IMG/VR virus record: IMGVR_UViG_3300035698_017217
Coordinates: 1-60,186 of that record
Direction: 5' to 3' (one strand)
DNA from: a virus
DNA: 60,186 nt
Part shown: positions 27,246 through 39,501 of the stretch, piece after piece
Layout: each line of letters begins with the position of its first letter
Numbering within the stretch: the first letter of the stretch is position 1
Notes under the pieces: generated by a model
Databases searched by the model: none
What the model was told of the DNA's origin: nothing
The model's input: the letters and a program-made list of their open reading frames with translations, nothing else
Position numbers and translations under genes: made by a program

Positions 27246-27606
27246 TGATATCCAGCGTAAAATTCAACTACTTATAGAAATGGCAGGGGCTTTCAATAAA
27301 GAATACCATGAACTTGTGTTAAGACGATTGGTAAAATCTGTAAAATCTATGACAGTTGAAGAACTTGAATATGCTATTGATAAAGTGATAGTTGAGAATG
27401 TATTTGCTCCTACTATTGCAGAATTGTGGAAGATCATTGGTATTAAACGAACAGAAGAAAAGTTTGTGCTTTGCAATAAGGTGATGACGTGGTTGCATAA
27501 AAACACTGACTGGGATTATTCCCAACATGCTGTGCAATGTGATATAGACACAGCTTTAATAGCTCTTGGGAAAAAAGCAGGATCGGTAACTACAGATGAT
27601 ATTTGA
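27238..27606 (+). CDS. Probable helicase loader
   Basis: 122 aa, ATG overlapping the initiator's stop. ENVFAPTIAELWKIIG resembles the short motif in phage loaders and in lambda P-like positions, and the gene lies exactly between initiator and helicase. No AAA+ motif, so it would be a non-ATPase loader. Assignment rests mostly on gene order. Confidence 0.5.
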   Translation: MVNDIQRKIQLLIEMAGAFNKEYHELVLRRLVKSVKSMTVEELEYAIDKVIVENVFAPTIAELWKIIGIKRTEEKFVLCNKVMTWLHKNTDWDYSQHAVQCDIDTALIALGKKAGSVTTDDI

Positions 27607-27623
27607 ATGGAGTTCGGAAAACC

Positions 27624-29006
27624 ATGAAGGTAAAGAAATACGATGGAACTGAAGAACGAAGAATTTTAGCCGAGATGGTGACGAATCAAACAGTATGCAT
27701 CAGAATAGCCAGTCAATGGAAAGACGATGGTGAAGGGTTATTTGGTTCGAAGTGGTCTAACTTAGTTGCTGGTTGGTGTATAAAACATGTAAGAAACTAC
27801 AACACAGCACCAAACAAACATTTACGTCCTATCTTCGATAGTTGGGCATCAACTACAAAAATGCCTGAATCGACCATTGATATGGTTGAGGACTTTTTGT
27901 CCGGTTTGTCTGATGAACATAGCCAGGATGAACAAAAGTCAAATGATTTCATCTTGGATATGGCAGGAGAGCATTTTAATAAGATACAAATCAAACGTGC
28001 CATGACTGAAGTGGATCTTCAGTTAGATCGAGGTAAGGTGGATCTTGCTAGATCTGCAATGCTTGAATTGGATAAGGTTGAGCTAGGTGAAGGGGCTTTG
28101 CTCAAACCATCTGAAAACTTCGAGATATGGAATGATGCATATAATGAAGAGATGGAACGTCCATTGGTTCCATATGGTGGTAAACTTACTAGTTTTCTAA
28201 ATGACGTAATGGTTCGTGATAGTTTTGTAGCATACATGGCTCCAGATAAAACTGGTAAGTCAATGATGTTGCTTGATGCTGCGTACCGAGGTATTAGGAA
28301 TAATTGTAAGGTAGCTTATTTTGAAGTTGGGGATATGAGTCTATCGCAAGTGTTAAAACGACTTGGACAAAGGGCTTCCAGAACACCAAAATCAAAAGGC
28401 AAGATCCGTTTGCCAAAATCTATTGATGATGAAATGAACGTTAAGTACGAAGTCAAACGATTTGATGAAGGTTGTACTGCTAGAAAGGGATTCAAATCAT
28501 TTAGAAAAGTATGCAAGGGTAAAGATCTTTTTAGATTGTCTTGTTATCCGAATAGTAGTATGGATATATTACGAATTGATAATATTCTAAGAGATTGGAG
28601 TTTAGAAGGGTGGGTGGCAGATGTGGTAGTCATAGATTATGCTGATATCCTTGCACCACCGTCACGGTCATCAGATCCACTAGAACAGATAGATATGACG
28701 TGGAAGCTTCTACGTCGAATGTCACAAGAGCACCATTGCTTAGTGCTTACTGCTACTCAAAGCAGTGCTGCTGCCTACACAAACAAAGCCAGTGTTCTTA
28801 CGAAGAGACATTTTTCGGGACGAAAGACCAAGTTAGCCCACGTTAATGCGATGATAGGTATCAATGTTTCTCCTGATGATAAAAAGAATGGAGTCACTAG
28901 GTTGAATTTTGTTGTGAGACGAGATGGGTATTTTAGTGAGAATCGGTATGTTGCTGTTGCTGGATGTTGGGATATTTGTAGTCCGTTGATGAAAACAGCG
29001 GAGTAA
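27624..29006 (+). CDS. DnaB-type replicative helicase
   Basis: 460 aa, starting at ATG 27624 (a TTG at 27603 would overlap the loader). N-terminal ~170 residues are helical, as in DnaB N-domains. The RecA-like domain has Walker A APDKTGKS, VAYFEVGDMS, Walker B VVIDYADIL and LTATQSS (sensor), with a later arginine-rich FVVRRDGYF segment. Likely the fork helicase that works with the loader and primase. Confidence 0.9.
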   Translation: MKVKKYDGTEERRILAEMVTNQTVCIRIASQWKDDGEGLFGSKWSNLVAGWCIKHVRNYNTAPNKHLRPIFDSWASTTKMPESTIDMVEDFLSGLSDEHSQDEQKSNDFILDMAGEHFNKIQIKRAMTEVDLQLDRGKVDLARSAMLELDKVELGEGALLKPSENFEIWNDAYNEEMERPLVPYGGKLTSFLNDVMVRDSFVAYMAPDKTGKSMMLLDAAYRGIRNNCKVAYFEVGDMSLSQVLKRLGQRASRTPKSKGKIRLPKSIDDEMNVKYEVKRFDEGCTARKGFKSFRKVCKGKDLFRLSCYPNSSMDILRIDNILRDWSLEGWVADVVVIDYADILAPPSRSSDPLEQIDMTWKLLRRMSQEHHCLVLTATQSSAAAYTNKASVLTKRHFSGRKTKLAHVNAMIGINVSPDDKKNGVTRLNFVVRRDGYFSENRYVAVAGCWDICSPLMKTAE

Positions 29007-30009: not shown

Positions 30010-30183
30010 ATGTTAGCGTTAACTAGGGAAGAAGAAGAACAGGTTTTGATAGGTTCAGATATTAGAATTACTGTAATTAAAGTTCTTCACAGGAAAGTAG
30101 AAATTGGGATAGAAGCCCCCAGACATTTACGTATCGAACGGGTAAGACCTGGGGAGGAGGTTTATAATGAAGGTAAATCGTGA
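30010..30183 (+). CDS. csrA: CsrA/RsmA translational regulator
   Basis: 57 aa, too short for usual ORF cut-offs. MLALTREEEE, VLIG, VIKVLHRKVEIGIEAP and RIERVRPGEE reproduce the CsrA backbone: Leu2/Leu4-Thr5-Arg6, IG at 14-15, IG at 32-33, AP at 36-37 and Arg44, matching residue by residue with E. coli numbering. Leu4 and Arg44 are key RNA-binding residues in the family. CsrA dimers bind GGA in hairpins over ribosome sites. The gene overlaps the sliding clamp start by 17 bases, with GGGGAGGAGG inside csrA serving the clamp. It may control phage leaders or host CsrA targets. Confidence 0.9.
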   Translation: MLALTREEEEQVLIGSDIRITVIKVLHRKVEIGIEAPRHLRIERVRPGEEVYNEGKS

Positions 30184-31177
30184 AGACGTATTGATTAAGT
30201 TAGAGACCATTGTTCCTGGTATTACTACCGACGATGTTATTGAACAAGGGAATTGCTTTGTGTTTGTGGATGGCCAAGTGGTATCCTTCAATGACGAAGT
30301 AGCTTGTTTTGCTAAACTTGATCTTGGTTTTGAAGGAGCAGTACAAGCAAAGCTATTTTTGGGCTTGTTGCGAAAAATGACAGAAGAGATAATTGATATT
30401 TCTTTAGATGAATCTGTTATTGTTGTTAAAGGCAAGAGGAAGAAAGCAAAGATTGTTGTTGAGAATGATATTGTTCTAGGTGTTGAAGATATCGAATCTC
30501 CAGAAGATTGGAGTAAACTTGATGATGATTTTTCAAATGCGTTATCAACAACAATTCATTGTGCTAGTAAAGTAGAGTCACAATTTCTTTTGACATGTAT
30601 TCATATATGTCCTGATTGTTTGGAAGCTTGTGACAGATACCAAATAATCAAGTATCCAATTGTCATTGACATTTCTGATAATGTTTTGGTCAAAGCTACT
30701 TCATTACGTTATGTAGCTGATATGGGTATGAGTGAATTCAGTTTGACAAAAAATTGGATTCATTTTCGTAATGATGATGGTAGTGTGTTTAGTTGTAGAA
30801 TTTATAACGAAACGTTCATCAAGACCGAAAATCATTTTAACACTACTGGCGATAAAGTAGAATTCCCGAAAGACCTGAATAAAGCTATTACGACTGCTGC
30901 TATCTTCGCTACAGATTCGAATTCTGATGATGTGCTGAAGATTAAACTGACTCGTAGTAAAATGAAAGTAACTGGTGAAGGGACCAGTGGTGTTTACACT
31001 GAAGTCATACCAATTGATTATGAAGGGAAAGAGATTGAGTTCTTTATTGCACCCAAGTTTTTGTCTGAAGTGCTGAAGTACTCATATGAATGTGTTGTTT
31101 CGAAAGAAAGATTGATGGTAACTACTGACAAGTTTAAGTATGCCACTTGTTGTTGCCATGCACCATCAGGAAACTAA
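30167..31177 (+). CDS. DNA polymerase sliding clamp
   Basis: 336 aa with the repeated beta-alpha-beta pattern of beta-type clamps: Phe/Val-rich strands, FPKDLNKAITTAAIFA and a C-terminal FIAPKFLSEVLKYS segment similar to the final clamp domain. Its neighbours (loader ATPase at 35708, polymerase at 33544) complete the processivity set. Length is slightly short for DnaN, typical of phage clamps. Family assignment by pattern. Confidence 0.8.
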   Translation: MKVNREDVLIKLETIVPGITTDDVIEQGNCFVFVDGQVVSFNDEVACFAKLDLGFEGAVQAKLFLGLLRKMTEEIIDISLDESVIVVKGKRKKAKIVVENDIVLGVEDIESPEDWSKLDDDFSNALSTTIHCASKVESQFLLTCIHICPDCLEACDRYQIIKYPIVIDISDNVLVKATSLRYVADMGMSEFSLTKNWIHFRNDDGSVFSCRIYNETFIKTENHFNTTGDKVEFPKDLNKAITTAAIFATDSNSDDVLKIKLTRSKMKVTGEGTSGVYTEVIPIDYEGKEIEFFIAPKFLSEVLKYSYECVVSKERLMVTTDKFKYATCCCHAPSGN

Positions 31178-31178
31178 A

Positions 31179-32372
31179 ATGAATGGATTTTTTGATACTG
31201 ATTTTTCTAAGACTAGTCGTATGTCTAAAGTGCCTAGATGTAGAATGTGTAAGCTAGATAGAAAATGCATGTCACCAAGGATGGAACCTTATGGAAAAGG
31301 TGAAAGAAAAATCCTTGTTGTTACAGAGGCACCCGGTGAAGCGGAGGATGAGCAGAATGTTCGATATGTTGGAAAGTCATGGCAATTGTTGGACAAGATG
31401 TTTGATGAGGTCGGTTACGACTTAGAGATGGACTGCTGGGTTACGAGTGCGGTCACTTGCCGACCAATAGACAACAGAACGCCAACTAGGAAAGAGATTG
31501 ATTTTTGCCGTCCTTCGCTTCTTAATACAATTGATGAGTTAAAACCGTTTGCTGTTATTTTGATGGGAACGTCTGCTGTTGATTCGTTGCTTGGATCTGT
31601 TTGGAAAAAGGACATCGGTGGTATATCCAGATGGGCTGGTTATCAAATACCGTTGAGAGAGAAGAATATCTGGGCATGTCCAATTTTCCATCCATCGTAT
31701 GTTATACGAATGGAGAATGATGTACTTGATTTGTGGTACAAGAAGCATATCAAAAATGCAATGAAGTTGATGAGTGTGCCTTGGCCTGTTGGTCCACCTG
31801 ATTATGAAAAGATGGTAGTCAAGATACTTGACCATAAGAAAGCTGCAAAAGAAATCAATAAGTTTGTTGATTCTGGAAAGCCTGTTGCTTTTGATTATGA
31901 AACAGATCGTCTGAAGCCTGATGATCCTAGATCGAAAATAGCTAGCTGTGCTATAAGTGATGGTGTTAGAACTATTGCTTATCCATGGGAAGGTGATGCA
32001 GTACAAGCGTCTAGTGATTTTCTGAAAAGTGGTGTTCCAAAAATTGCTGCGAACATAAAGTTTGAAGAGCGATGGACGAAAGCTGTACTTGGTCATGGTG
32101 TAAACAATTGGAAGTTTGACACCATGCAAGCTTCTCATGTTTTCAATAACGAAGCTGGTATAACGTCTGTAAAATTTCAGTCTTTTATCCGTCTTGGTGT
32201 TGGTGACTATGATTCTTATATCCATCCATTTTTGTCCCAAGAAGGGCTGAACGGAGGAAATAGAGTTTTCCAAGCAGATATTGATAAGCTGCTTCTGTAC
32301 AATGGCATGGATGCAATTCTTGAATACCAAATAGCCGAACGACAGATGAAAGAAGTTGGAATCGTTTTATAA
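31179..32372 (+). CDS. UDG-like domain fused to 3'-5' exonuclease
   Basis: 397 aa from ATG 31179. Residues ~10-200: CRMCKLDRKC cluster cysteines, ILVVTEAPGEAEDEQ (UDG superfamily active-site loop), CWVTSAVTCRP and CPIFHPSY, as in family 4/5 uracil glycosylases and the UDG-like start of SPO1-type polymerases. Residues ~225-397: exo I AFDYETD, exo II AANIKFEERW, exo III LYNGMDAILEY. The polymerase domain expected next is on a separate ORF at 33544, after an HNH gene. Confidence 0.9.
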   Translation: MNGFFDTDFSKTSRMSKVPRCRMCKLDRKCMSPRMEPYGKGERKILVVTEAPGEAEDEQNVRYVGKSWQLLDKMFDEVGYDLEMDCWVTSAVTCRPIDNRTPTRKEIDFCRPSLLNTIDELKPFAVILMGTSAVDSLLGSVWKKDIGGISRWAGYQIPLREKNIWACPIFHPSYVIRMENDVLDLWYKKHIKNAMKLMSVPWPVGPPDYEKMVVKILDHKKAAKEINKFVDSGKPVAFDYETDRLKPDDPRSKIASCAISDGVRTIAYPWEGDAVQASSDFLKSGVPKIAANIKFEERWTKAVLGHGVNNWKFDTMQASHVFNNEAGITSVKFQSFIRLGVGDYDSYIHPFLSQEGLNGGNRVFQADIDKLLLYNGMDAILEYQIAERQMKEVGIVL

Positions 32373-32379
32373 ACGTGGT

Positions 32380-32389
32380 GTGAGAATAA
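32380..32389 (+). promoter_or_regulatory. Class B promoter-like motif (TGTGAGAATA)
   Basis: Lies 42 bases before the HNH gene and just after the exonuclease stop. If 32373-33543 is an intron this motif would lie inside it. Confidence 0.45.
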
Positions 32390-32431
32390 GATAGACAGTT
32401 TAAGTCAATTTTATTTTTACATGAGAGAACC

Positions 32432-33022
32432 ATGATCTGTAGAACCGATTGTGTTTTGAAAGAATGTAAAGAGTGTTGGGGTAAATTTACCACAAAGAAT
32501 AAAGATGAAAAGTATTGTTCTGCTGAATGTCGTGAAGAAGCAGAAAGAACTAAAACAATGGATCGTATAAGGAGACTTTCTGGTCCAATACTTGGTGAAT
32601 CAAACTCCAAAAAAAGAAGCCTTGCTTATTCTGATGATAGATTAGAAAAAGTTGAGTGTAAAGATGGAAAATGGGATATGTGGGTACGCAAAGATAGAAA
32701 AACTGCTTTTGTAAGAAAAGTAGTTGTTGTATTAGAAAAAGATAAGGGCAGTGAACTTACAAGGGGTGAAAAACAACGAATTCGTTTTAGAGATGGAAAC
32801 CGATTAAATACTCATATAGATAATTTGTTGTTTTCAAAAACAGAATATAAATTTAGAGTATGTAAAGTGTGTGGTGATGAGAAGTCAGTTCTCAAAGTCC
32901 ATTATGATACTTTTCAAGGAGTGTGTAGAAAATGTCATATTAAAATTGTTGGGCGTGGTCATAGAAAGCAAGATGCTGAGCAGGTAGTTGGAAGTAATAA
33001 TAAGGAGAATCAAAATGTCTAA
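32432..33022 (+). CDS. HNH endonuclease-like protein (possibly inactive)
   Basis: 196 aa. N-terminal CKECWGKFTTKNKDEKYCSAEC is a zinc finger typical of phage HNH proteins; IRFRDGNRLNTHIDNLLF aligns with the HNH core (HxDGNxxNNHIDNL) but the first catalytic His is Arg/Phe. C-terminal CKVCGDE...CRKCH is another zinc site. Could be a degenerate homing enzyme or a DNA-binding relic. It sits between the two halves of the polymerase. Confidence 0.8.
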   Translation: MICRTDCVLKECKECWGKFTTKNKDEKYCSAECREEAERTKTMDRIRRLSGPILGESNSKKRSLAYSDDRLEKVECKDGKWDMWVRKDRKTAFVRKVVVVLEKDKGSELTRGEKQRIRFRDGNRLNTHIDNLLFSKTEYKFRVCKVCGDEKSVLKVHYDTFQGVCRKCHIKIVGRGHRKQDAEQVVGSNNKENQNV

Positions 33023-33524
33023 GATAATCACCATAGAAGAATTGATAGTTGCTTTTGAAAAGAAATGTAATTTTGAAATACCAGTAGAAGGAATTTATGA
33101 GTGTGCTGTTGATGCGGTACAAATAAATAAACACAAAGATTACAAACGATCCATAATGTTGGATAAACTTAATACATGTTTAGATGGTTTCTGTTGTGAT
33201 TTTACAGATATTCGTCATATGATACATGAATGGCCGACTTTAGTGCAATGGAAAAAAGAAGGCTTGCAGACGATGAGGGATAAAATACATCAAGAAGAAA
33301 GAGGTAACAATGTAAGATGTAAGGTCAAAGTAAAATCAAAAACAAAAATAGAAATAGAATCTGGATTATCTAGAGCGTCTATGGCTAAAGAAGTTGCTTT
33401 GAAAAAACTACTCAAAGAAAAAGAAAAACAACATAAAGATGATAAAAAACAAATTGAATATTTATTGCAAATTTGTGAGAATCAAAAAGATGAAATTGCA
33501 CGTCTAAAAAAACGTGGAAAATAA
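33015..33524 (+). CDS. Hypothetical 169-aa protein with C-terminal coiled coil
   Basis: Start 33015 follows TAAGGAGAATC. N-terminal 70 residues helical with four Cys; C-terminal ~60 residues are a Lys/Glu coiled coil (KEVALKKLLKEKEKQ...). Lies with the HNH gene in the insert between exonuclease and polymerase ORFs. Confidence 0.65.
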   Translation: MSKIITIEELIVAFEKKCNFEIPVEGIYECAVDAVQINKHKDYKRSIMLDKLNTCLDGFCCDFTDIRHMIHEWPTLVQWKKEGLQTMRDKIHQEERGNNVRCKVKVKSKTKIEIESGLSRASMAKEVALKKLLKEKEKQHKDDKKQIEYLLQICENQKDEIARLKKRGK

Positions 33525-33543
33525 TTAGTTAAAGTAGCAAACT

Positions 33544-34884
33544 ATGAAATTCAAAACAAAAGACGCTTACAAATTGATGCATGATGGAGCATTGGCGTTG
33601 GCTCAAGTTGAGTCTGATGGTATGCGAATCGATGTTAAACGAATGGATCGTGCCATTGTTGAAACTGGTGAACGTATTACCAAAATGACAGCAGAGTTGA
33701 AGGAAGATGAGATTTGGAGAACATGGAAAAAGCTATTTGGAAAAAAGTCCAATCTTGGTAGTACTCACCAGTTAGGCAAAATCTTGTTTGAGGAACTTGG
33801 TTATGAGCCTAGATCTAGAACGAAAACAGGTAAGCCACAAGTCAATGAAGAAAACTTACGGTCTATTGATTTGAAGTTCATTGATGATTATCTCACCATT
33901 AAGAAATTGATGAAGCTACAATCTACTTACTTAAAGGGTATACGAAAAGAAGTAGTTGATGGGTTTCTTCGACCATCGTTCAATTTGCATCTTACCAAAA
34001 CGTTTCGGTCCAGTAGCAACAATCCAAATTTTCAGAACATACCAATCAGGGACAAAGAAATTGGCAAGTTGATTCGTTCGTGTTTCATACCAAGGGATGG
34101 GCATGTGTTGGTAGAAGTCGATTACGGTGCATTGGAGTTTCGGATTGCTGCATCGTTTTGGAAAGACAAGAACATGGTTGAGTATGCGTCTGATCCTGAT
34201 CTTGATATCCATAGAGACATGGCTGCTGAATGCTATTGCATGAAAAAGTCTGAAGTCACGAAAGAAGCTAGATTCTATGCAAAGAATCAGTTCGTATTTC
34301 CTACGTTGTATGGTTCGTACTACGTCACTACTGCTAGAGATCTGTGGACTGCTATGCAGAAAGAGAAACTGAAAACAGCAGATGGTGTTCCTCTTCAGCA
34401 GCATATGAGAAAGAAAGGTATCACTCAGCAAAATTTTGAATCACATATCAAAAAGGTAGAAGAATCCCTAAACGAACGATTTGCAACGTGGAGTGATAGA
34501 AAAGAAAAGTGGTGGAACAAGTATCAGAAAACTGGTGGCTTTGATTTGCTAACAGGCTTTCATATAGATGGCGTCTATTCTAAAAACCAATTGATGAATA
34601 CACCCATTCAAGGACCAGCATTCCATTGCTTGTTATGGTCGTTGATAAAAATGGTGAAGTGGCTGAATAAGAAACAGATGCGAAGTTGTGTCATTGGTCA
34701 GATTCATGATAGTATCGTGGCAGATGTGCATGTTGATGAATTGAAGACTTATCTTAGGAAGATAAAAAATGTGATGACTGTTGATGTGCGTAAGCATTAT
34801 AAATGGATCAGAACACCATTGGAGATCGAAGCTGAAGTGGCAGAAACGACGTGGTTTGATAAGAAAGAAGTTGATATCCCGTAG
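33544..34884 (+). CDS. Family A DNA polymerase domain
   Basis: 446 aa. Motif A VEVDYGALEFRIAA, O-helix region ARFYAKNQFVFPTLYGSY (Arg, Lys, Tyr-Gly), and motif C VIGQIHDSIVADVH, where the usual HDE is HDS. NPNFQNIPIRD and RTKTGKPQVNEENL are also standard. It has no exonuclease or UDG part; those lie upstream at 31179. No clear ribosome site precedes the ATG, which leaves open that it is joined to the upstream ORF by splicing or is translated by coupling. Confidence 0.9.
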   Translation: MKFKTKDAYKLMHDGALALAQVESDGMRIDVKRMDRAIVETGERITKMTAELKEDEIWRTWKKLFGKKSNLGSTHQLGKILFEELGYEPRSRTKTGKPQVNEENLRSIDLKFIDDYLTIKKLMKLQSTYLKGIRKEVVDGFLRPSFNLHLTKTFRSSSNNPNFQNIPIRDKEIGKLIRSCFIPRDGHVLVEVDYGALEFRIAASFWKDKNMVEYASDPDLDIHRDMAAECYCMKKSEVTKEARFYAKNQFVFPTLYGSYYVTTARDLWTAMQKEKLKTADGVPLQQHMRKKGITQQNFESHIKKVEESLNERFATWSDRKEKWWNKYQKTGGFDLLTGFHIDGVYSKNQLMNTPIQGPAFHCLLWSLIKMVKWLNKKQMRSCVIGQIHDSIVADVHVDELKTYLRKIKNVMTVDVRKHYKWIRTPLEIEAEVAETTWFDKKEVDIP

Positions 34885-34957
34885 AGTTAATTTTGGTAAA
34901 CCAACCGCGATAATTTCAATGTGAGTGGTGATTGTAGGTTCGAATCCTACCGGGATA
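34875..34957 (+). tRNA. tRNA-like RNA A (83 nt)
   Basis: 7-bp acceptor TATCCCG (34875-34881)/CGGGATA (34951-34957), perfect T arm GTAGG-TTCGAAT-CCTAC (34934-34950), but the D arm is poor and no standard 5-bp anticodon stem with a 7-base loop can be drawn. The 5' acceptor strand overlaps the last codons and stop of the polymerase gene. No encoded CCA. Confidence 0.45.
34906..34915 (+). promoter_or_regulatory. Class B promoter-like motif inside tRNA-like A
   Basis: CGCGATAATT resembles the class B core. It could drive tRNA-like B, or simply be part of tRNA-like A. Confidence 0.3.
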
Positions 34958-34976
34958 GTTTTATGAAAGAATTGGT

Positions 34977-35172
34977 TATCTTGAGGCGAGAGGTACACGC
35001 TAAGACTACGAAAATGACCCTAATTGTTACGGCTGATCGGTCTCTGGTGACAGAGATGAATATCCAAAGCGGATCGGCTCCTAGTGAGTTCCATGCTTGA
35101 GTACTCATGATGATGGAAACTGGTAGCACGTAGTTACATGGGTTATCGGGGGTTCGAATCCCACTAAGATAA
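34977..35172 (+). tRNA. tRNA-like RNA B with ~115-nt insert
   Basis: Acceptor TATCTTG (34977-34983)/TAAGATA (35165-35171) with one wobble, D stem GCG/CGC around a GG-containing loop, T arm GGGGG-TTCGAAT-CCCAC with one mismatch, discriminator A. A 7-bp stem GACTACG (35004-35010)/CGTAGTT (35129-35135) takes the anticodon-stem place and encloses two further hairpins: GCTGATC/GATCGGC with an inner TCTCTG-GTGA-CAGAGA, and TTCCAT/ATGGAA. This looks like a tRNA with an inserted domain. Confidence 0.5.
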
Positions 35173-35196
35173 TTTTTTTTTGAAAAGGAGAATGAA

Positions 35197-35623: not shown

Positions 35624-35707
35624 AAACTACCAAACGGTTATGTTGTTTTTCTGCAAAGGCGAATTTAGATCCATTATTTGTATGGAAAGAGATTTACGGA
35701 GAATGAT

Positions 35708-36634
35708 ATGGAATTATATAGAAAGTACCGGCCTTCAAAATTAAAAGATGTTGTTGGCCAAGATGATGTTATTGAGATGCTTAATGATTTTGGCATAAAA
35801 GGAACGCTGCCACATTGCATCCTATTTTCTGGACCATCAGGATGTGGCAAGACAACTGTTGCTCGTATCTTGCGGACAAAGTTGAAGTGTCGAGATACTG
35901 ATTTTATGGAAGTTAATGTTGCTGATTTCCGTGGCATTGATATGGTTCGTGATATACGATCAAAAATGTCGCTAGCTCCAATGTCTGGGAATACACGGGT
36001 ATGGTTGATCGATGAAGCAGCTTCATTGACTAAGGATGCTCAGAATGCGTTTCTGAAAATCCTAGAAGATACACCAAGGCATGTGTATTTCTTTTTGGCC
36101 ACAACTGATCCACAGAAATTGTTGAGGACGATTCGAACTAGGACTACCGAAATTAAGATGAATGCTCTTGGTAGTGCTGATATGGAAACGTTGGTACTGT
36201 CAGTTTGTAAGAAGGAAGAAAAGAAGCATCTTGAAGATAGTGTGTTGGACAAGCTTGTTAGGATGGCTGATGGTAGTCCACGAAAAGCATTGGTGTTGTT
36301 GAATCAGATCATTGCTATAGATGATGAAGACATAGCTTTGGAGGTACTTGGTCAAGGTGACAATGATGAAGAAGCTATTGCACTAGCTAGGCTGCTGCTG
36401 AAAAACAACGTCAGATGGTCTGAGATAGCCGCCATGATAAAATCGATTAAAGGGATCAATGAACAGGTAGAAAGTATTCGTTGGCTTGTGCTTTCATACA
36501 TGAGTTCGGTTGTTTTGGGTGATGGGAAACAAGCTGCTAAAGCATGTGTTGTGATGGAAGCATTCAGAGATCATTTCTATGACAGTAAGAAAGCTGGTTT
36601 AATACTAGCATGTCGTGAAGCTATCGGTTTATGA
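35708..36634 (+). CDS. AAA+ clamp-loader ATPase
   Basis: 308 aa from ATG 35708 with CGGAG upstream. ELYRKYRPSKLKDVVGQDDV, Walker A GPSGCGKTT, Walker B VWLIDEAAS, sensor 1 FFLATTDPQ and a TIRTRTTE segment in place of the SRC box match DnaX/RFC-small/gp44 loaders. Only one loader subunit is visible; a partner may be elsewhere or the RarA-C-like protein at 47863 may serve. Confidence 0.9.
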   Translation: MELYRKYRPSKLKDVVGQDDVIEMLNDFGIKGTLPHCILFSGPSGCGKTTVARILRTKLKCRDTDFMEVNVADFRGIDMVRDIRSKMSLAPMSGNTRVWLIDEAASLTKDAQNAFLKILEDTPRHVYFFLATTDPQKLLRTIRTRTTEIKMNALGSADMETLVLSVCKKEEKKHLEDSVLDKLVRMADGSPRKALVLLNQIIAIDDEDIALEVLGQGDNDEEAIALARLLLKNNVRWSEIAAMIKSIKGINEQVESIRWLVLSYMSSVVLGDGKQAAKACVVMEAFRDHFYDSKKAGLILACREAIGL

Positions 36635-38403: not shown

Positions 38404-39501
38404 ATGAAGACTGAAGATGTAAAAAATTGTATGACTGCCAAGAAAGAAAAATCCACACCCATTGAAGAAATGGAATTGCTTCATACAGGCAGTACATTGC
38501 TTAATCTTGCATGTTCTGGGAAATCTGATGGTGGTTTTCCACAAGGTTGCTATATATTTTTTGTTGGTGATTCCATGTCTGGTAAAACGTGGTTTTCGCT
38601 TACGTGCATGGCTGAAGCGTCTATTGATGAAAGATTTGATGATTATCGATTCATCTACGATAACGTTGAACGTGGTGCTAGGATGGATTTGATACGGTAC
38701 TTCGGTCAGAAGATGGCTGACAGATTGGAGCCACCTGCTGTTGATGAAGATGGAGATCCTGTCTACTCTTCGTATGCAGAAGAATTCTATTTCAATTTGG
38801 ACGATGCTTTTGAAGTAGGCAAGCCGTTCATTTATATCATGGATTCGATGGATAGCCTTGATACGTTTGCTGACGATAAGAAGATGGGTGAATGGAAAAA
38901 AGATCATCGTGCTGGTAAGGCAACAAAAGGCACGTATGGTATGAGTAAGGCCAAATTGAATTCTACTAATCTCAGAAAGATTTGTGCAAGGCTTGAGAAG
39001 ACTGGTAGCATTCTGATTGTAATTAGTCAGACAAGGGACAATGTTGATCCAAAACAACCGTTCCAGACTAAGACAAGAGGTGGTGGTAGAGCTTTGCGTT
39101 TTTATGCTACCATTGAAATGTGGTCATCAGTTATCGGCAAGATTCAAAAAACGTATAAGGATAAAAAGCGTCAGATTGGATCGAACGTAAAGCTGAAGAT
39201 CCAAAAGAACCGTTTGACTGGTAAGGAATGCGAAGTAGTTGTTCCAATTTATCATAGTATTGGAATAGATGATATTGGATCATGTATTGATTATCTTGTT
39301 GATGAGAAAGTGTGGACGCAAACAAAATCAGGTGTTGTATCTCCGAATAATATTGGTCCTGTTAAACCTATGCGTAGGGACAAATTGATTGAGTATATTG
39401 AAAAGCATGATTTAGTCATGGATGTGCAAGATTTAGTTGGAGATGAGTGGCAGAAGATTGTTGATGCTACTGCTGTAAAACGTAAACCTAAATATGAATA
39501 A
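38404..39501 (+). CDS. RecA/UvsX-like recombinase
   Basis: 365 aa. Walker A FFVGDSMSGKTWFS, Walker B FIYIMDSMDSL, LIVISQTRDN, and the ATP-site LRFYATIEMW segment fit RecA/UvsX. It lacks the DNA-binding C-terminal domain of bacterial RecA but has a winged-helix-like tail. Works with SSB, SbcCD and RuvC here. AAGGAGAAG upstream. Confidence 0.9.
   Translation: MKTEDVKNCMTAKKEKSTPIEEMELLHTGSTLLNLACSGKSDGGFPQGCYIFFVGDSMSGKTWFSLTCMAEASIDERFDDYRFIYDNVERGARMDLIRYFGQKMADRLEPPAVDEDGDPVYSSYAEEFYFNLDDAFEVGKPFIYIMDSMDSLDTFADDKKMGEWKKDHRAGKATKGTYGMSKAKLNSTNLRKICARLEKTGSILIVISQTRDNVDPKQPFQTKTRGGGRALRFYATIEMWSSVIGKIQKTYKDKKRQIGSNVKLKIQKNRLTGKECEVVVPIYHSIGIDDIGSCIDYLVDEKVWTQTKSGVVSPNNIGPVKPMRRDKLIEYIEKHDLVMDVQDLVGDEWQKIVDATAVKRKPKYE

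Follow-up and report, generated by a model that had tools for sequence, protein, structure and literature searches.

Is the DNA polymerase gene of this virus interrupted by an intron, or is the enzyme permanently made from two genes? The question is posed by a stretch of 60,186 nt from an IMG/VR virus record (IMGVR_UViG_3300035698_017217; hereafter, the window), in which a uracil-DNA glycosylase (UDG)-like and 3'-5' exonuclease gene (UDG-exo) and a family A polymerase gene (pol) lie 1,171 bp apart, with an HNH-like gene between them. We consider it likely, at a probability of roughly 85%, that these genes specify a UDG-exo/PolA made as two polypeptides throughout its lineage, with a cargo site at the gene junction; that estimate jointly covers the proposal that separate UDG-exo and pol genes are a trait of a large, mostly uncultured lineage. 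The case is built on comparison of sequences.

Layout of the polymerase locus

The features considered here are the following.

27603-29006: DnaB-like helicase, in the replisome operon of the window
30167..31177, + strand: sliding clamp gene, in the same operon and immediately 5' of the N chain (synteny; match to the PHROG_947 processivity factor at E 2e-25)
31179..32372, + strand: UDG-like and 3'-5' exonuclease subunit gene, the N chain (Pfam UDG, DNA_pol_A_exo1)
32373..33543, + strand: junction of the two polymerase genes, empty or otherwise filled in relatives
32432..33022, + strand: HNH-like ORF with CxxC pairs and a degenerate HNH core, putative cargo (HNH_3, PHROG_15471)
33015..33524, + strand: coiled-coil-like ORF with no assigned function, putative cargo (GC3; strong Shine-Dalgarno sequence TAAGGAG)
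33544..34884, + strand: family A DNA polymerase domain gene, the C chain (Pfam DNA_pol_A; shared start position)
35678..36634, + strand: clamp loader gene, 3' of the C chain, same operon (PHROG_5846, E 5e-63; synteny)
38404-39501: RecA/UvsX-like protein, in the replisome operon of the window

An ORF scan found the UDG-exo frame open from 31140, with its best start at 31179 (Shine-Dalgarno match AGGA) and its stop at 32372. Pfam matched the two polymerase halves to UDG (E 7e-21), DNA_pol_A_exo1 (E 4e-7) and DNA_pol_A (E 3e-60), and of the PHROG_17 profile, positions 470-828 match the first protein and positions 834-1237 the second. Because this match runs on from 828 to 834 across the proteins, the halves are contiguous and complete, with no part missing. 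The break falls in the linker that follows the last exonuclease helix and precedes the first helix of the polymerase. The coordinates and domain calls of the preliminary description were therefore correct by ORF scan, Pfam and PHROG, and the roughly 1.17 kb between the halves does hold an HNH-like and a coiled-coil-like ORF. The gene order clamp, UDG-exo, pol, clamp loader, recA is kept in relatives.

Both chains have the residues expected of working enzymes. The C chain carries the family A polymerase motifs A (D..xxE; here VDYGALEFR), B (R...K...F..YG; here RFYAKNQFVFPTLYG) and C (HD; here IHDSI), with key residues invariant in 33 split loci. The N chain has the DnaQ-like 3'-5' exonuclease motifs ExoI (DxE; FDYET), ExoII (NIKFE) and ExoIII (YxxxD; YNGMD), together with the marks of an Fe-S UDG: four Fe-S cysteines (C34, C37, C107, C123), a GEAPGxxE-type motif (EAPGEAED) and an HPS/HPA motif (FHPSY), which are kept in nearly all split loci. 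From its sequence, we take the UDG module to be a family 4-like Fe-S uracil-DNA glycosylase. The invariance, or near invariance, of the UDG, exonuclease and polymerase catalytic residues in the 33 split loci argues that both chains are kept functional. The locus resembles the 43A/43B type in that it comprises two complete, conserved pieces of the kind that jointly make one enzyme. A peculiarity of the UDG-exo gene (31179-32372) is its ExoII motif, NxKFE, in which an invariant Glu replaces the usual Asp in split and fused relatives alike.

Two tRNA-like elements were noticed at and beyond the 3' end of the pol gene. The first (34875-34958), which a focused Rfam search scored as tRNA at 31.2 bits (E 8e-4) and which ARAGORN found at relaxed settings only, overlaps the last polymerase codons with its 5' acceptor strand. 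The second (34976-35173, about 198 nt) has a 7-bp acceptor (TTATCTT/AAGATAA) and a TTCGAAT T-loop; with introns allowed, ARAGORN calls it tRNA-Ile(GAT) with a 102-nt intron, and its arm spacing is non-canonical. Such intron-type calls, which ARAGORN also makes elsewhere in the window, may be false.

The intron question and the split among relatives

A group I or other self-splicing intron with an HNH ORF might interrupt a single polymerase gene, as in SPO1 and SP8. This idea has its precedent in the SPO1-type phages and draws on the HNH-like ORF between the two polymerase pieces. However, when both the region and the isolated gap were searched against Rfam in a permissive mode, no group I or group II intron emerged at E <= 10, and the group I core that the preliminary description had suggested seeking in 32373-33543 was likewise not matched at that level, although the SP8 intron, our positive control, was detected at E 1.6e-4 in the same mode. 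Rfam gathering thresholds miss even the SP8 intron; thus, we discounted gathering-level negatives for the window and its relatives, and the permissive searches alone count. Further, the HNH-like and coiled-coil-like ORFs fill 93% of the gap, leaving 59 and 19 noncoding bases.

Relatives add to this evidence. They came from alignment-based scanning of viral contigs and from a single genome-contig scan (IMG/VR and MAG contigs); single-protein scans with the polymerase, the HNH-like protein and the coiled-coil protein found none, and alignment-based scans alone reached polymerase relatives. Among distinct loci with at least 34% polymerase identity, 88 are split (window included) versus 5 that are fused, and 12 further loci yielded no N half, which lay out of reach or was not found. 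The enzyme is divided at one and the same linker in at least 87 related viral sequences, each with a two-gene polymerase. In the median, window residue 410 marks the end of the N chain (interquartile range 409-413), which is also where it ends in the window. Taking in each locus the start codon closest to the pol ATG of the window, a choice that favors small offsets, places the pol start at that position or 1-3 codons upstream in 83 of 87 loci. These shared positions indicate that the stop and start flanking the gap are ordinary gene ends. Comparison of the loci shows, then, a UDG-exonuclease-polymerase A that comes from two genes and is split at the exonuclease/polymerase linker.

The distance between the genes ranges from -29 to 4,687 bp across the 88 split loci. 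In 35 of them, the exo and pol genes overlap or lie within 17 nt of each other, often as ATGA, an arrangement that points to coupled translation. An intron would not fit into these tight loci, the stop and start on either side of the gap stand at the ordinary gene ends that 87 relatives show, and the inserts at other loci are unrelated genes. An intron is thus very improbable here. When the preliminary description offered an intron or a permanently split polymerase, it was the latter that survived, given 88 split versus 5 fused loci with the same stop and start positions; the former is contradicted by the missing core and the overlapping exo and pol genes of many relatives.

Another possibility is that a split intein or programmed frameshifting joins the halves during or after translation. 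Fractured genes that carry split inteins and endonucleases have precedent (Dassa 2009, as cited in PMC10448857), and a fused relative (L119, 5941-9705) bears an intein-like insert in its polymerase domain, right after the conserved N..xQG stretch. The N chain, however, ends about 20 residues past ExoIII and the C chain begins at the polymerase domain, which leaves no room for intein halves. A programmed frameshift at the junction was ruled out, as the tight loci have two different frame relations (21 and 14 loci) and varied overlaps, and most other loci have long gaps. Of all the explanations weighed, joining of the halves has the least to recommend it, and we regard it as exceedingly improbable.

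Two observations concern the wider set of relatives. No UDG-exo was found up to 6 kb upstream of the polymerase gene in locus L232 (1-6001), where the two genes may be unlinked. MAG contigs with relatives are assigned to Lokiarchaeota, Thermoplasmata and Firmicutes; they may be misbinned virus contigs, and one matches an IMG/VR contig in length and range. For this reason, we name no host.

Order of events and the junction as a proposed cargo site

The HNH-like gene might still have caused the split: a free-standing HNH homing endonuclease could have invaded an intact polymerase gene and so divided it, as mobE did in nrdA of Aeromonas phage Aeh1. There is precedent for such an event (PMC2988022), and the HNH-like gene does sit at the break. 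A tree of 73 loci, made by quick search and carrying no bootstrap, pairs the window with L012 (SH-aLRT 98), a locus that is split with overlapping genes and no insert. Since this nearest relative is split without an insert, the split is older than the HNH/coiled-coil insertion. L012 and many others, free of any endonuclease, count against the role that the preliminary description had implied for the HNH gene in making the split, as do the inserts elsewhere, most of which are not endonucleases, and the HNH core of the window, which is degenerate. We thus deem an HNH-made split improbable, if somewhat less so than an intron. An endonuclease could have made the original split in an ancestor and then been lost.

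In the same tree, the fused enzymes form a basal grade, with fused L095/L098 and L134 nested among split forms. An AU test rejected a single split clade without nested fused forms (p 1.7e-5). Re-fusion must therefore have taken place, or else more than one split; on a quick tree that carries no bootstrap, the count of such events is uncertain.

In active members of the HNH_3 family, whose pattern is HHxDGN..N....NL, the histidines precede the DGN..N....NL part. The core of the HNH-like protein, IRFRDGNRLNTHIDNL, has IRFRDGN where the family has HHxDGN, so that both histidines are absent. Its match to HNH_3 (E 0.017) is below cutoff, PHROG_15471 is matched (E 2e-4) over the zinc-finger part, CxxC zinc-binding pairs lie at both ends of the protein, and an AlphaFold model (pLDDT 35) is uninformative. 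The label "HNH-like" is thus apt as to a weak likeness, but not as to an intact core. This is best described as a degenerate HNH-like protein that probably binds DNA, and homing through its own cleavage is unlikely. The HNH-like and coiled-coil-like ORFs have the two lowest GC3 values (0.19 and 0.20, respectively) of 71 ORFs in the window (mean 0.34), and relatives of either were found neither by tblastn against 50,697 phages, nor by single-protein scans, nor among the loci of polymerase relatives. Lowest GC3 and no detectable relatives are as expected of a recent arrival, and the pair looks like an AT-rich one that would not be an intron and would not have caused the split. The two insert edges (32371 and 33510) share an 8-bp direct repeat, AAACGTGG, which is near chance for the size of the search, and we make no claim for it.

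What occupies the junction differs widely among relatives. Inserts of 69-4,687 bp separate the halves in 53 of the 88 split loci, and BLASTP sorted 94 gap ORFs (including the HNH-like ORF of the window and leaving out its coiled-coil ORF) into 75 groups. They encode MazG pyrophosphohydrolases, small proteins matching Pfam QSregVF_b, DNA methyltransferases, ThyX, CsrA, helicases and a few HNH proteins. An entire cytosine methyltransferase insert is found in just one of two close relatives, L118 and L127. Gaps of at least 150 bp occur between exo and pol in 17 of 33 loci, between pol and clamp loader in 17 of 31, and between clamp and UDG-exo in 2 of 27. The best reading of these patterns is that the junction between the two polymerase genes tolerates insertions and that accessory genes enter and leave it.

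Two loci may preserve traces of this traffic. L106 has a QSregVF_b-like gene at the junction (1162-1499), where its close relative L103 has just a 69-bp gap (1298-1366) with a similar edge, probably a decayed remnant. In L243 (5684-6573), a chimeric ORF between MazG and another ORF consists of the first ~66 pol residues and the last ~23 UDG-exo residues; it suggests the footprint of a tandem duplication at the exo-pol junction, by which new genes may lodge there.

A probable two-chain polymerase and its counterparts

The two polypeptides would be translated separately, in many relatives through stop/start overlap. As the preliminary description had noticed, the pol ORF of the window lacks a good ribosome site: its best Shine-Dalgarno match is 3 nt, versus at least 4 nt at the best start in 76 of 91 window ORFs, a figure inflated by choosing the best start. 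The stop of the coiled-coil gene lies 19 nt upstream of the pol start, and reinitiation after that stop is perhaps the simplest guess. For a pol gene without a clear ribosome site, any expression route is a guess. No terminator was found in the gap, and promoter-like sites there are at the level of shuffled sequence.

Most likely, the chains come together, with no peptide bond between them, as a single clamp-bound, Klenow-like proofreading replicase that bears a uracil-DNA glycosylase module. We infer this assembly from the conserved motifs, the shared operon, the stop/start overlaps, the nested fused relatives, and a fused homologue with the same order in Edwardsiella phage vB_EpM_ZHS. Alternatively, the polymerase may act alone and UDG-exo may be an independent repair or clamp-associated nuclease. 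The genes are separate, at times by kilobases (up to 4,687 bp), and in most relatives the UDG-exo start overlaps the clamp gene region while the exo-pol junction is loose. Against this, the adjacent order is kept in nearly all loci, stop/start overlap is frequent, fused forms are both basal and nested, and the halves match one family profile, PHROG_17, contiguously. We find independent action unlikely, though it is the strongest of the rivals to a two-chain enzyme. A more speculative extension of that two-chain enzyme, which we hold tentatively and at well under even odds, casts UDG-exo as a true subunit, tied to the clamp and regulated on its own, that proofreads and senses uracil. The result would be a dissociable two-subunit family A replicase, for which Pol III alpha/epsilon offers a comparison, with a lasting cargo junction that often holds nucleotide-metabolism genes (MazG, ThyX, methylases).

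If the chains assemble, these viruses hold dozens of natural two-piece proofreading polymerases of one family, with fused sisters to compare. They would permit a direct test of the coupling between synthesis and proofreading, and would supply natural split polymerases for biotechnology. The locus also presents a split essential gene whose junction is reused repeatedly for unrelated insertions, and a split older than the mobile-looking gene within it, which inverts the usual story. Such phages would be misread by gene callers and polymerase surveys built to expect a single ORF or to assume an intron.

Split polymerases are already known. In the literature that we searched, which lay mostly outside subscription journals, neither this lineage nor a family A polymerase divided at the exo-pol boundary was found described. 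The polymerase of SPO1/SP8 (gp31) likewise combines UDG-like, exonuclease and polymerase A domains and has an HNH-family gene between polymerase pieces; SP8, however, has a detectable intron core inside the polymerase domain, whereas the window has no core and is broken between exo and pol. In Aeh1, nrdA, an essential enzyme gene, is split by mobE into pieces around an HNH-family gene and is still functional (PMC2988022). The Aeh1 split was made by the endonuclease insertion, whereas that of the window predates its insert, whose HNH core is degenerate. The OM43 phages MEP401 and MEP402, like most members of their group, encode their family A polymerase on two ORFs that flank a small gene, and an intron was likewise suspected (PMC10580990). 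Their break falls inside the polymerase domain and no UDG is mentioned; that of the window separates exo from pol. Jumbo phages have a split Pol III-like subunit (PMC7824862).

Another parallel is the split gene 43 (43A/43B) of the T4-related Aeromonas phages 25 and 44RR, the halves of which co-purify and are active, and whose endonuclease may have invaded an already split gene (PMC2988022). As here, a replicative polymerase comes from two genes, but that enzyme belongs to family B, has a different evolutionary origin and lacks a uracil glycosylase module. Edwardsiella phage vB_EpM_ZHS resembles the window in its order of clamp, polymerase, small ORF, clamp loader and RecA and in its UDG-exo homology; its polymerase is a single 2,631-bp gene, unlike the two of the window.
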